This document shows, one piece after another, positions 25,604-29,519 of a DNA stretch of 49,737 nucleotides. Below the pieces are notes generated by a model that saw nothing but the letters and a program-made list of their open reading frames with translations, searched no databases and was not told where the DNA came from. Position 1 is the first letter of the stretch. Every line of letters starts with the position of its first letter. The translations under genes were made by a program, and so were the position numbers. The stretch lies in contig NZ_BCXJ01000010.1 in the NCBI RefSeq assembly GCF_001598215.1, positions 1-49,737 on the forward strand. Direction: 5' to 3'. The DNA comes from Shouchella clausii. Lineage in GTDB: Bacteria > Bacillota > Bacilli > Bacillales > Bacillaceae_D.

Positions 25604-26023
25604 TTATTCTCCTGTTTCTGCAAATTTCTTTATACGTGTTCCTATCTCATCTCGGACTCGTTGAAAGACCATCCACCTCTCTTCTTCGGTACCTTCTGCC
25701 TTCGCCGGATCCTCAAATCCCCAATGGTCACGCTTCACATGTGCTGGCGTGAGCGGGCATTTGTCTGCTGCATCGCCGCATAGCGTCACAACAAAGTCAG
25801 CGTTGTTTAACAGGTCTACATGAATGAGATCGGATGTTTGATTGGAGATATCAATCCCTACTTCGTTCATTGCTTTTACGGCATTAGGATTCAAACCATG
25901 GGCTTCAATTCCTGCGCTATAGACCTCCCACTCATCTGATAGATAATGCTTCCCAAATCCTTCCGCCATCTGACTGCGGCATGAGTTTCCTGTACATAAA
26001 AAGTAAATGGTTTTCTTTGACAT
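25604..26023 (-). CDS. arsC: Thioredoxin-coupled arsenate reductase ArsC
   Basis: 139 residues, the standard size of the low-molecular-weight phosphatase-like ArsC. The P-loop CTGNSCRS has the nucleophile Cys10 and Arg16, and the redox pair is at LCGDAADKC (about Cys82 and Cys89). Asp in DHWGFEDPA near 105 acts as general acid. It reduces As(V) to As(III) using thioredoxin. It is the third gene of arsR-arsB-arsC, 14 bp after arsB, with AAGGAGTGG upstream. All catalytic residues are present. Confidence 0.97.
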
Positions 26024-26037
26024 GTGCCTTCCACTCC

Positions 26038-27336
26038 TTAATGAATGATCATTAACCAGAGGTATAAACCTAATAACGTTATAAACAACACAGGTAAAGT
26101 AATGACTACACCAGTCTTAAAATAAGTACCCCATGAGATTTTTACACCTTTTTGTGTCAACACATGGAGCCACAATAATGTGGCGAGTGAACCAATGGGT
26201 GTTATTTTCGGCCCTAAATCGGAACCAATCACATTTGCGTAAACCATCGCTTCCTTCATTAATCCAGTCGCGCTCGTCGTATCAATAGCAATCGCATTGA
26301 TCATTACCGTTGGCATGTTGTTCATCATCGAACTTAAAACAGCGGCAACAAACCCCATCCCCATTGTAGCAGCAAAAACACCTTGCTCCGCGATCCTCTC
26401 AAGTCCCAAAGCGAGTAAATCTGTTAAACCGACATTTTGTAAGCCGAACACGACCACATACATCCCAATCGAGAAAAAAACAATGTTCCATGGCGCGCCT
26501 TTCAATATAGACCGGGTTTGAATAACAGGGCTTTTTCTAGCTATCACTAAAAAGATCAACGCAATCAGTCCTGCAATAATAGAAACGGGGATATGCAAAA
26601 ACTCACTAACTAAGTAACCAATTAACAATAGAACAAGCACCCACCATGACAAGCGAAACATGTTATCGTCTTTAATTGCCGATGCAGGTGATTGCAACGT
26701 CTCGTAATCATAGTTTTTCGGGATGCTTTTTCGGAAGTAGAGATACAACACGAGGATACTCGCGATTAAAGAGAAGACATTCGGAACAATCATGCGTGTC
26801 GCATACTCAATAAAGCCAATGCCAAAAAAGTCAGCCGAAACAATGTTCACTAAGTTACTCACAATGAGTGGCAGAGACGTTGAGTCAGCGATAAATCCAC
26901 TGGCAATGATAAAAGGGAATACCATTTTTTCATTAAAGTTTAAAGCACGGACCATCGCTAAAACGATTGGCGTTAGAATTAAGGCAGCGCCATCGTTGGC
27001 AAAAAACGCCGCAACTACGGAACCAAGAATGCACACGTATACAAACATCAGCTTGGCGTTCCCCTTCGCTGCCTTGGTCATATGTAAGGCGGCCCATTCA
27101 AAGAAACCAATCTCATCGAGGATTAAGGAAATAATAATAACGGCAATAAATGTCAACGTGGCATTCCACACAATCCCCGTCACTTCAACCACATCTGCAA
27201 TTGAGACAACGCCAAGTAATAAAGCAAGAATAGCTCCTCCACACGCCGACCAACCAATATTCAAGTTACGAGGCTGCCAAATAACCAACGCGAGCGTCAT
27301 AATAAAAATCAATGAAGCAAAAATAACCGTTAACAA
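26038..27336 (-). CDS. arsB: Arsenite efflux transporter ArsB
   Basis: 432 residues with about 12 TM segments and a TTG start after GGGAGG. It has the ArsB/NhaD-type sequence: [47 protein letters not shown], and [14 protein letters not shown] with the conserved NN-P motif, then [24 protein letters not shown]. It exports As(OH)3 or antimonite driven by the membrane potential. No arsA ATPase gene is present, so it works as a secondary carrier. It lies between arsR and arsC, 15 bp from each. Confidence 0.96.
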
Positions 27337-27351
27337 CGCTTAATCCTCCCT

Positions 27352-27696
27352 TTACCCACAGTCTACAGGTATTTCCTTCTCTAAAAGACTGCGGTAGCGT
27401 TCATCTTGATCTGAAAGTTGCTTCAAAATGGCTTGAACGAATTCAGCTTTCGGAGAGGATTGGTTCAAAGAATAAAAACGCCATTGGCCTTTTCGCGTTT
27501 CCACTACTAGGCCAGCTTCCTTAAGTTTCTTTAAATGCTGACTAATTGAAGGCTGACTCGCTTCAAACATATCGACAAATTGACAAACGCAATATTTTTT
27601 CTTTGAAACAAGTTTCAACATGAGCAACCGAGTGGGATCACTAATCACTTTCATGCATTTCGCAATTTCTTCGGAGCTCAGTGACTTAAATACCAT
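27352..27696 (-). CDS. arsR: Arsenic-responsive repressor ArsR
   Basis: 114 residues with winged HTH FVDMFEASQPSISQHLKKLKEAGLV and, at the start of the recognition region, KKYCVCQF, the ELCVCDL-type As(III)-binding Cys pair. A second possible ligand is the C-terminal Cys (PVDCG). It should leave its operator on As(III) binding and induce arsB-arsC. An operator candidate with two TTATATAA arms lies about 30 bp upstream of the start. AAGGGGGAAG precedes the ATG. Confidence 0.95.
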   Translation of the reverse strand: MVFKSLSSEEIAKCMKVISDPTRLLMLKLVSKKKYCVCQFVDMFEASQPSISQHLKKLKEAGLVVETRKGQWRFYSLNQSSPKAEFVQAILKQLSDQDERYRSLLEKEIPVDCG

Positions 27697-27723: not shown

Positions 27724-27747
27724 TTATATAACGAAATCATTATATAA
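27724..27747 (-). promoter_or_regulatory. Candidate operator of the arsRBC operon
   Basis: TTATATAA-CGAAATCA-TTATATAA, two identical palindromic 8-mers separated by 8 bp, lies just upstream of arsR. It is the only strong dyad in the region and differs from the ATCAA-N6-TTGAT sites of the neighbouring unit, which suggests two separate ArsR specificities. Confidence 0.55.
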
Positions 27748-27823: not shown

Positions 27824-28219
27824 TCAAGATATAGGAGTATTGCCTATCTTCTCACTGTCTTGTTTTGTATAAAAATATTCCCATTTGTTTCCATCGGGAT
27901 CGGTTACCCAAAATTTATCTTGTACAGCATAACAACAAGTAGTATTCAATTCTTCACGGACAAAGAAACCTTCACGTTCGAGCCTTTCTTTATGTTTAAG
28001 TACATCTTCTTTGGTCTCAACCTGTATACCTAAATGATTAATTTGATTTCCAGCCACTTTATTTTTTTGTGTTAACGTCAAATTTAAATTAGGTTCTTGT
28101 GTCAGAAATTTGACATAATCGTCTTTTACTTTTACCGGTTTCACGCCTAAGAATCGTTTATAAAAGGTTTGACTTTCACTTAAATTTTTTACATTAAGCC
28201 CAATGTGCACATTCACCAT
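27824..28219 (-). CDS. arsI: ArsI-like organoarsenical C-As lyase
   Basis: 131 residues, a VOC fold with the ArsI/CadI features: HIGLNVKNLSESQTFYKRFLGV, then INHLGIQV (His ligand), and the vicinal Cys pair in NTTCCYAVQDKFWVTDPDGNKWEYF, where CC binds trivalent organoarsenic and Glu is the last metal ligand. ArsI cleaves the C-As bond of MAs(III), roxarsone(III) and similar compounds with Fe(II) and O2. GAGGAGGAAT lies before the start. It is preceded by its own ATCAA-N6-TTGAT operator, and is the third gene after arsR2 and a small Cys-pair protein. Confidence 0.9.
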   Translation of the reverse strand: MVNVHIGLNVKNLSESQTFYKRFLGVKPVKVKDDYVKFLTQEPNLNLTLTQKNKVAGNQINHLGIQVETKEDVLKHKERLEREGFFVREELNTTCCYAVQDKFWVTDPDGNKWEYFYTKQDSEKIGNTPIS

Positions 28220-28236: not shown

Positions 28237-28256
28237 ATCAATAAAATTTGATTTAA
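28237..28256 (-). promoter_or_regulatory. ArsR2 operator, site 1 (ahead of arsI)
   Basis: ATCAA-TAAAAT-TTGAT-TTAA. Overlaps the stop of the small Cys-pair gene and lies 18 bp before arsI. Confidence 0.7.
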
Positions 28257-28408
28257 TAAACACAGCAAGCCCCATTTTGATAGTAACGAAGCACCACTTG
28301 ATCTTTTACTTGTTCCATCCTCTCTTCTTTTAGCAATTGCTTCATCTCATCTACTGGCTCTTTACAACATTTGTTAAAAGGAGAAAAGAAACGTTTTAGT
28401 ATCCTCAA
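28253..28408 (-). CDS. 51-residue vicinal-cysteine protein in the ars unit
   Basis: Encodes about 51 residues from a TTG that follows GGAGGTGA by 8 bp; the ATG at 28426 is within the ribosome site. The sequence has a basic N-terminal stretch RILKRFFSPF, a Cys pair NKCCKEP near residues 13-14, a charged helical centre, and a second pair GACCVY at the C terminus. Two vicinal Cys pairs are a typical As(III)-binding arrangement, as in ArsD, but I do not recognise the family and ArsD is about twice as long. Flanked by ArsR-type operators and placed between arsR2 and arsI, it could be a small arsenic-binding chaperone or sensor. Confidence 0.65.
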   Translation of the reverse strand: MRILKRFFSPFNKCCKEPVDEMKQLLKEERMEQVKDQVVLRYYQNGACCVY

Positions 28409-28424
28409 CTTGCCACTCACCTCC

Positions 28425-28444
28425 ATCAAGAAAAATTGATTTAA
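28425..28444 (-). promoter_or_regulatory. ArsR2 operator, site 2 (ahead of the small Cys-pair gene)
   Basis: ATCAA-GAAAAA-TTGAT-TTAA. Lies between arsR2 and the 51-residue gene, overlapping the ribosome-site region. Confidence 0.7.
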
Positions 28445-28463: not shown

Positions 28464-28781
28464 TTACTTAGACGGTTTTAATATACAGCAGAGTTGTTCC
28501 GACAGTAAGGCATCAACTTCTGTCTCATTAACACTGTAATAACTCCAAGTACCCTTTGTTTCCATTTTCAACAAATTTGCGTCGACTAAAATCTTCAGGT
28601 GGTAGGATAGCTTAGATTGGCTCATTTGCATCTCTTCCGTAAGATCACATACACACGTTTTACCTTTTAGACTAAGGACATTTAACAGACGTAAACGTTT
28701 TGTGTCGGCTAATGCCTTAAACTTGGTTTGGAAATCCTCTAATTCTTGATTGGAAAGATGATTATTAACAGGTTGTTTCAT
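28464..28781 (-). CDS. arsR: ArsR-type metalloregulatory repressor, second copy
   Basis: 105 residues. The As(III) site CVCDL is present (TCVCDLTEEMQMSQSKLSYHLKIL), with Cys-Val-Cys at the start of the recognition HTH, and a C-terminal Cys pair EQLCCILKPSK that could add a third ligand. It differs clearly from the arsRBC regulator in sequence. Its promoter carries two copies of the ATCAA-N6-TTGAT operator, so autoregulation is likely. It heads a unit with the small Cys-pair protein and arsI. TTGAGGTG precedes the ATG. Confidence 0.93.
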   Translation of the reverse strand: MKQPVNNHLSNQELEDFQTKFKALADTKRLRLLNVLSLKGKTCVCDLTEEMQMSQSKLSYHLKILVDANLLKMETKGTWSYYSVNETEVDALLSEQLCCILKPSK

Positions 28782-28801
28782 GATAGCACCTCAACTTTTA
28801 A

Positions 28802-28821
28802 ATCAAAAAAAATTGATTTAA
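28802..28821 (-). promoter_or_regulatory. ArsR2 operator, site 3
   Basis: ATCAA-AAAAAA-TTGAT-TTAA, just downstream of the -10 element, positioned to block transcription start. Confidence 0.75.
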
Positions 28822-28825
28822 GTCC

Positions 28826-28854
28826 ATTCTAAAGGACAATAAACTAAAAATCAA
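28826..28854 (-). promoter_or_regulatory. Sigma-A promoter of the arsR2 unit
   Basis: On the minus strand TTGATT (28849-28854), a 17-bp spacer and TAGAAT (28826-28831). The -35 hexamer overlaps operator site 4 and operator site 3 follows the -10, so repressor binding would cover both ends of the promoter. Confidence 0.7.
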
Positions 28855-28869
28855 GAGTTCTTGATTTAA
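28850..28869 (-). promoter_or_regulatory. ArsR2 operator, site 4
   Basis: ATCAA-GAGTTC-TTGAT-TTAA, overlapping the -35 element. Confidence 0.75.
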
Positions 28870-28960: not shown

Positions 28961-28990
28961 TTGACAATAAAAAAATCATCGTGTTATAAT
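28961..28990 (+). promoter_or_regulatory. Sigma-A promoter of the CarD-like gene
   Basis: TTGACA (28961-28966), 18-bp spacer, TATAAT (28985-28990): both consensus hexamers, about 68 bp before the start codon. Confidence 0.85.
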
Positions 28991-29057: not shown

Positions 29058-29519
29058 ATGTTTCAAATTGGCGATAACATTGTTTATCCGATGCACGGAG
29101 CAGGTGTAATTGAGGCGATAGAAGAAATAGAATTTTTAGAGGAAAAACAACAGTATTATATCATAAAAATGTCAATCAACAATATGAAAGTTATGATTCC
29201 AACGAGCAAAATAGTGAGTTCAAGTATACGGCCAGTTACTGATATACTTGCGATAAACCACATTATACACATATTTCAGCACGGAGAATCAGATACGTTA
29301 CTGCCGTGGAAACAAAGGTATAAAGTAAACGCGGACAAAATAAAAATGGGTGACATACAAGAAGGTGCTGAAGTTGTACGCGATTTAATGCGTATTAAGA
29401 AAGAAAAAGCACTTAATACAAGCGAAAAAGAAATGTTGGATAATGCCTATGAATTTTTGCTTAGTGAACTGGAAGTCATTAAAGGAATCACCGAAAATCA
29501 AATAAAAAGTTTCTGTTAA
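29058..29519 (+). CDS. CarD/CdnL-family transcription regulator
   Basis: About 153 residues starting MFQIGDNIVYPMHGAGVIEAIEEIEF, with GGAGGTGG 5-6 bp before the ATG; an upstream in-frame ATG at 28998 lacks a site. Residues 1-60 form the RNA-polymerase-binding Tudor-like domain (GDNIVYPMHGAGVI, YYIIKM, KVMIPTSKI) and the rest is a helical domain (WKQRYKVNADKIKMGDIQEGAEVVRDLMRI). CarD-type proteins bind the RNAP beta subunit and stabilise open complexes; B. subtilis YdeB is a related protein. It is a single gene with a near-consensus promoter. Confidence 0.88.
   Translation: MFQIGDNIVYPMHGAGVIEAIEEIEFLEEKQQYYIIKMSINNMKVMIPTSKIVSSSIRPVTDILAINHIIHIFQHGESDTLLPWKQRYKVNADKIKMGDIQEGAEVVRDLMRIKKEKALNTSEKEMLDNAYEFLLSELEVIKGITENQIKSFC

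Follow-up and report, generated by a model that had tools for sequence, protein, structure and literature searches.

The small gene between the repressor gene arsR2 and the C-As lyase gene arsI of Shouchella clausii may encode a dithiol protein under ArsR control whose role is to bind trivalent arsenicals, methylarsenite (MAs(III)) being the likeliest, and to pass them to ArsI, a reading that we regard as about evenly balanced between right and wrong. We give a little less credence to a broader proposal, that Bacillales possess an ArsR regulon of dithiol mini-proteins in at least three profile-unrelated sets (the KCC...ACC type described here, a CC-tail type and a CCxVxIKEV type), which would serve ArsI and permeases of the ArsP type by carrying or buffering trivalent organoarsenicals and would also act alone. 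"The window" below is the whole stretch of DNA analysed, 49,737 nucleotides of contig NZ_BCXJ01000010.1; its relevant features are as follows.

28253..28408, minus strand: predicted 51-residue paired-cysteine protein (TTG start, stop included; from translation, ribosome site and dN/dS)
28464..28781, minus strand: arsR2, ArsR/SmtB repressor with Cys 43, 45, 98 and 99
27824..28219, minus strand: arsI, C-As lyase family, with H5, H62, C95 and C96 and no Cys tail
27352..27696, minus strand: arsR1, second ArsR/SmtB repressor, first gene of the adjoining arsR1-arsB-arsC unit
26038..27336, minus strand: arsB efflux pump (TIGR00935)
25604..26023, minus strand: arsC arsenate reductase, thioredoxin type (TIGR02691)
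28425..28441, minus strand: the small gene's ATCAA-N6-TTGAT operator, 16 nt upstream of its start
28237..28253, minus strand: ATCAA-N6-TTGAT operator ahead of arsI
28801..28818, no strand assigned: proximal ATCAA-N6-TTGAT operator ahead of arsR2
28849..28866, no strand assigned: distal ATCAA-N6-TTGAT operator ahead of arsR2

The ORF at 28253-28408 is real. Its predicted product, read on the minus strand from 28408 to 28253, is MRILKRFFSPFNKCCKEPVDEMKQLLKEERMEQVKDQVVLRYYQNGACCVY, with CC at residues 14-15 and 48-49, Cys nowhere else in the 51 residues, and a C-terminus, ACCVY, that runs two residues beyond the second pair; four Cys fell into two such pairs in 0.5% of shuffles (P = 0.005). A GGAGGTG ribosome site stands 9 nt upstream of the TTG start, and the start is supported because the homolog from Alkalicoccobacillus, equal in length, has ATG at the matching residue. 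The gene begins 55 nt beyond arsR2 and ends 33 nt ahead of arsI; of the six small intergenic ORFs in the 49.7 kb window whose ribosome-site match spans at least 6 nt, it alone contains CC. A first-pass annotation had proposed a TTG-started gene with a strong ribosome site between arsR2 and arsI, encoding two Cys pairs in 51 residues, and the coordinates and translation agree with it on each point. Comparison with the same-genus homolog gave dN 0.024 and dS 0.116 from only 6 nucleotide differences, and comparison with the Alkalicoccobacillus homolog (39% identity) gave dN 0.56 and dS 1.35, near saturation, with zero indels. These comparisons, one of few differences and one near-saturated, support the view that the ORF evolves under purifying selection.

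No related family was found for the protein in Pfam and NCBIfam at E values up to 1, the sole match being an unrelated baculovirus model under its cut-off, and a PDB sequence search with the window family gave a best E of 0.13. A structure model of the 51 residues had two low-confidence helices (pLDDT 57.6) and was left unused. With no description in the literature searched either, the protein merits the term undescribed that it had been given at the outset.

The operators tie the small gene to its neighbors. An exact ATCAA-N6-TTGAT site lies directly upstream of the small gene, placing it among the operator-bearing genes, and arsR2, the small gene and arsI each stand behind an exact site, as had been claimed from the letters. 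The longer form AATCAA-N6-TTGAT has four exact occurrences in the 49.7 kb window, none of them outside the ars unit, and gives six strand matches over the whole window where 0.14 are expected. We infer that ArsR2 binds these sites and controls the small gene. General scans were close to background for promoters (11 sites vs 10.1 in shuffles) and gave 1 terminator vs 2.8 in shuffles. The arsI product itself matches NF041414 at 165.9 bits (cut-off 116). The arsR1-arsB-arsC genes sit downstream behind a separate promoter-like site; ahead of arsR1, two TTATATAA motifs 8 bp apart (window 27724-27747) are unlike the ATCAA operators, and arsR1 may read another operator than arsR2. Elsewhere in the window, a perfect TTGACA-18-TATAAT promoter with a TG extension (28961-28990, plus strand) precedes a CarD-family gene (29058-29519). 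One perfect operator-like site at another place in the window genome (L144, C2:192643) lies inside a coding-looking ORF and was set aside as probably due to chance.

Homologs with both Cys pairs are rare, being confined to Shouchella relatives and Alkalicoccobacillus. The ORF in a S. tritolerans record (L012) is identical letter for letter; that of Alkalicoccobacillus porphyridii (L003/L013), at 39% identity and the same length, shares the six-gene order arsR-small-arsI-arsR-arsB-arsC and the four-site operator layout. A protein search matched 5 of 100 relatives, own genome counted, and a profile search placed the family in 6 of 41 family genomes. Eight of 397 order genomes passed E 0.01, of which the own genome and two others (G317, G216) were accepted; nine of 398 class genomes passed, with only the own genome accepted, and matches at E 0.0009-0.01 in the order and class searches were rejected as homologs. 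Plasmids and phages yielded no match to the family, nor did viral contigs in a search sensitive enough for close relatives only, and a mobile origin was accordingly rejected.

Alignment of seven members separated two types. The first Cys pair is present in all seven, preceded by K in six, and the C-terminal pair in three, all ArsI-linked and from two genera; conservation of the Cys pairs, on which the initial reading depended, therefore holds for the first pair and fails for most members at the second. Type one has both pairs and is encoded between arsR and arsI (window, L002, L003). Type two, from Halalkalibacter and two other genomes (L004, L005, L015), is shorter, has the first pair only, ends at NG, and directly follows an ArsP_1-type permease gene, ahead of a second small CC ORF; the PF03773 match was run on the L004 permease, and those of L005 and L015 were assigned by similarity. 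A further homolog (L016) also lacks the C-terminal pair; it is located outside ars genes, and no operator accompanies it. The other six of the seven aligned members adjoin genes connected with trivalent organoarsenicals, either arsI or an ArsP_1-type permease gene. A selenocysteine reading of the short homologs was discarded: NG is followed by a TAG stop in one of them and by a TGA stop in another, and their ends are thus ordinary.

The suggested survey of other Bacillales loci for two-pair ORFs yielded Alkalicoccobacillus. Of the 397 order genomes, 74 supplied 77 ArsI loci, and among these a window-type ORF was present only in the window's own (next best E 0.23). More loosely defined small CC ORFs, hand-chosen from a list, lay near arsI in 16 of the 77. 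On an ArsI tree of 76 rows (two fragments dropped, L003 added) with many unresolved forks, 11 changes are needed to explain which loci have a small CC ORF, so it has been gained and lost repeatedly. The two ArsIs with a window-type neighbor belong to one supported clade of nine, and the other seven have no small CC neighbor; ArsI therefore does not need the small protein, which, given these close ArsI relatives, is an accessory. Relatedly, L101, a close neighbor of Alkalicoccobacillus on the ArsI tree, has the arrangement arsR-operator-arsI with no small ORF, so that operator and ORF look like a unit present or absent together.

Small CC ORFs also recur beside permeases. Permeases similar to that of L005 (E up to 1e-40) occur in 104 of 299 order genomes searched, and the best 30 of these 104 genomes supplied the permease loci (L107-L136). 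At least one small CC ORF was present in 27 of these best 30, and an exact operator in 29; among their 46 small CC ORFs, 27 have an operator at most 120 nt upstream. For the ArsI-linked small CC ORFs the corresponding count is 2 of 16, the window's included, and most of those with no operator directly follow arsI. In each of the six permease loci inspected along with their larger CC ORFs, an ArsR gene lies upstream. Hand-excluded from the ArsI loci were CC ORFs that were arsR or arsI pieces (L048, L049, L060 and the second of L042), two out of frame by appearance (L058, L074), and a 57-residue ORF with a terminal CC, lying about 190 nt beyond arsI (L061:2643-2816, L067:1596-1769), which by eye we take to resemble a HesB-type protein.

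In a slot test, all small ORFs that had a ribosome-site match within 60 nt were counted, with no selection for CC. In the best 30 permease genomes of the 104, CC was present in 42 of 45 such ORFs vs 17 of 121 on the opposite strand, and in the ArsI loci in 12 of 17 vs 10 of 260 opposite-strand controls (Fisher P = 6e-22 and 1e-11, respectively, with kinship ignored and several ORFs near-identical). Two sets were aligned: A3, the CC-tail set, hand-collected, with 24 rows at 28% mean column identity, some of them maybe unrelated; and A4, the CCxVxIKEV set, with 14 rows. Both were built from ArsI and permease loci, many of their profile matches are the same genes, and the invariance of CC in them arises by selection of rows; the slot test, the profile matches and the matches away from ArsI and permeases are less biased on CC, with kinship ignored.

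Among 169 order genomes, the A4 profile matched in 34, with 32 of the matches within 1.3 kb of a permease, and the A3 profile matched 25 places in 24 genomes, 12 beside a permease and 8 beside ArsI. Five of the seven remaining places have two to four exact operators nearby (L194, L197, L198, L170, L204), shuffled versions of six of the loci away from ArsI and permeases having 0.01-0.02 sites; the other two (L201, L202) are weak matches with no operators. In L198/L205 (L205:1199-2201), three CC-tail genes stand in tandem after arsR, every one with an ATCAA-N6-TTGAT site of its own in front, and the 4.2 kb examined of L205 hold neither ArsI nor permease. L204:1431-1911 carries an A4 ORF paired with one that is A3-like by eye, with three operators and no ArsI or permease within 3 kb. 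Five plasmid records contain an A4-type ORF (annotated as hypothetical protein in four, unannotated in one), and two A3-type representatives had no plasmid match. On Priestia megaterium plasmid p9 (L203:527-4337), an A4-type ORF, annotated hypothetical, directly follows the permease gene. The opposite strand carries an ArsR/SmtB, an ATP-grasp and a carboxymuconolactone decarboxylase family gene at 0.7-2.6 kb upstream of that permease.

Homology of the window family to A3 or A4 was rejected (hhalign probabilities 1.8 and 0.7); the resemblance is one of size, Cys pairs, operator and gene company. Seven A3/A4-type representatives had no family match above chance, and A3 gave a best E of 0.29 in a PDB sequence search. 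In the window genome itself, nothing matched the permease at E 1e-40 or passed the thresholds applied for A3 and A4; a weak A4 match at E 0.07 was rejected. The recurrence of small paired-Cys proteins in ars units suggests that they are undescribed small arsenic-binding carriers.

Among known systems, ArsD serves inorganic As(III) together with ArsA and has about 120 residues, vs 51 here. The judgment that the small protein is not ArsD stands, there being no ArsD family match, and arsA is absent from the six annotated genes of the window ars unit. The two proteins are alike in lying in ars units, in that both may pass trivalent arsenic, and in an N-terminal vicinal pair (Cys12-Cys13 in ArsD, Cys14-Cys15 here); the ArsD site is, however, Cys12-Cys13-Cys18 according to the accessible part of PMC12607644, and the window protein has no third Cys near the pair. 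NF040734 (SaoC) was not matched by the window protein in NCBIfam at E up to 1. SaoC is small and shares a unit with SaoE, the model of which is matched weakly by the L004 permease (86.7 bits, cut-off 325). SaoC, a Cys-Cys-COOH (seleno)protein of the SAO organometallic system in the accessible text of PMC13188914, likewise has a C-terminal Cys pair and belongs to an organometal system, but the pair in the window protein is not its last two residues and there is no selenocysteine. The C-terminal CC tails of ArsI and ArsR show the same dithiol motif in the same regulon; these belong to an enzyme and a repressor, whereas the small proteins are separate genes. Finally, Exiguobacterium acr3 clusters encode a small Cys-rich hypothetical protein, described in the available portion of PMC9671657 as of unknown role, which is similar in size, Cys content and location in an arsenic pump cluster; that description sets it apart as a member of the DnaJ/Hsp40 Cys-rich superfamily beside acr3 and arsK, not ArsI.

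In the mechanism we propose, the small dithiol protein would be under the control of ArsR2. Its vicinal Cys pairs would bind trivalent arsenicals, most likely the highly toxic MAs(III); the bound arsenical would be kept off other cell thiols, and MAs(III) would be handed to ArsI for demethylation. Translation, arsenical binding, MAs(III) preference and hand-over are all inferred, the hand-over from gene context only. Two-thiol sites suit MAs(III): SpArsR, whose As(III) site is missing its third Cys, responds to MAs(III) and not As(III) (accessible text of PMC11868830); ArsR2 has no third C-terminal Cys. Bacillus ArsI binds its substrate through Cys96-Cys97 (PMC12607644, accessible part), the window ArsI having C95-C96. 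Hand-over of MAs(III) or As(III) to ArsI, one of the roles first suggested, fits the gene context and two-thiol chemistry; transfer to ArsB, another, finds no specific support. Buffering, the third, comes not far behind the hand-over in plausibility, because other small CC ORFs occur singly or in three copies with operators of this kind.

Of the competing explanations, simple sequestration of As(III) or MAs(III) by a minimal-metallothionein-like thiol buffer, with no hand-over, survives best, although we consider it doubtful and give it about half the weight of the hand-over. The small CC ORFs that stand apart from ArsI and permeases, namely the tandem triplet behind arsR and the two-type pair, have their own operators; the extra gene copies suggest a dose effect, and these stand-alone and multiplied A3 copies favor plain buffering. 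On the other hand, the proximity of A4 to ArsP_1-type permeases (32/34) is tighter than a free buffer needs, A3 lies beside a permease or ArsI in 20 of 25 places (both sets having been built from such loci), and the 51 residues include only 4 Cys. A regulatory peptide that adjusts ArsR2, for instance by offering it the inducer or taking the inducer away, seems improbable. In its favor, the small gene directly follows arsR2, and a CC tail on ArsR is rarer with a small CC ORF (1/13 vs 16/41, P = 0.043, kinship ignored) among the 54 of 77 loci with a readable ArsR tail; most small CC ORFs, however, follow arsI or surround the permease and do not come directly after arsR.

Equally improbable is an ArsI accessory that replaces the CC tail common to most ArsIs. 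The window and Alkalicoccobacillus ArsIs are both tail-less, and the small protein ends one residue beyond ACCV, yet a tail CC accompanies the small CC ORF in 12 of 16 loci and occurs in 52 of the 61 that have no such ORF (P = 0.45), and within the same bacterial family four ArsIs with no tail have no small ORF either (L085, L098, L101, L104); with no complementarity over the 77 ArsI loci, such replacement is not supported. Least likely of all, and very improbable, is a non-functional leader or chance ORF between arsR2 and arsI, which the TTG start and narrow distribution (6/41 family genomes) would allow but against which stand dN below dS, equal length with no indel across 39% identity, the gene's own operator and ribosome site, and the first CC pair in all seven homologs.

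In the literature searched, which covered few subscription papers, these small ORFs are nowhere described, and no soluble protein is named as a partner of ArsI or ArsP. The accessible part of a 2025 review of arsenic in Bacillus (PMC12607644) mentions no small CC protein, those of PMC6205960 and PMC9671657 describe no such small ORFs beside arsI or arsP, and that of PMC12608789 has nothing on them. The same review portion reports arsP as undetected in Bacillus ars operons; contrary to this, ArsP_1-type permeases with ATCAA operators are common in Bacillales, and their export of MAs(III) is putative. Recurrent paired-Cys mini-proteins linked to operators would be a testable candidate for holding MAs(III) between sensing, cleavage and export and, if they do so, would represent a layer of arsenic handling that is missing from current accounts of ars operons.
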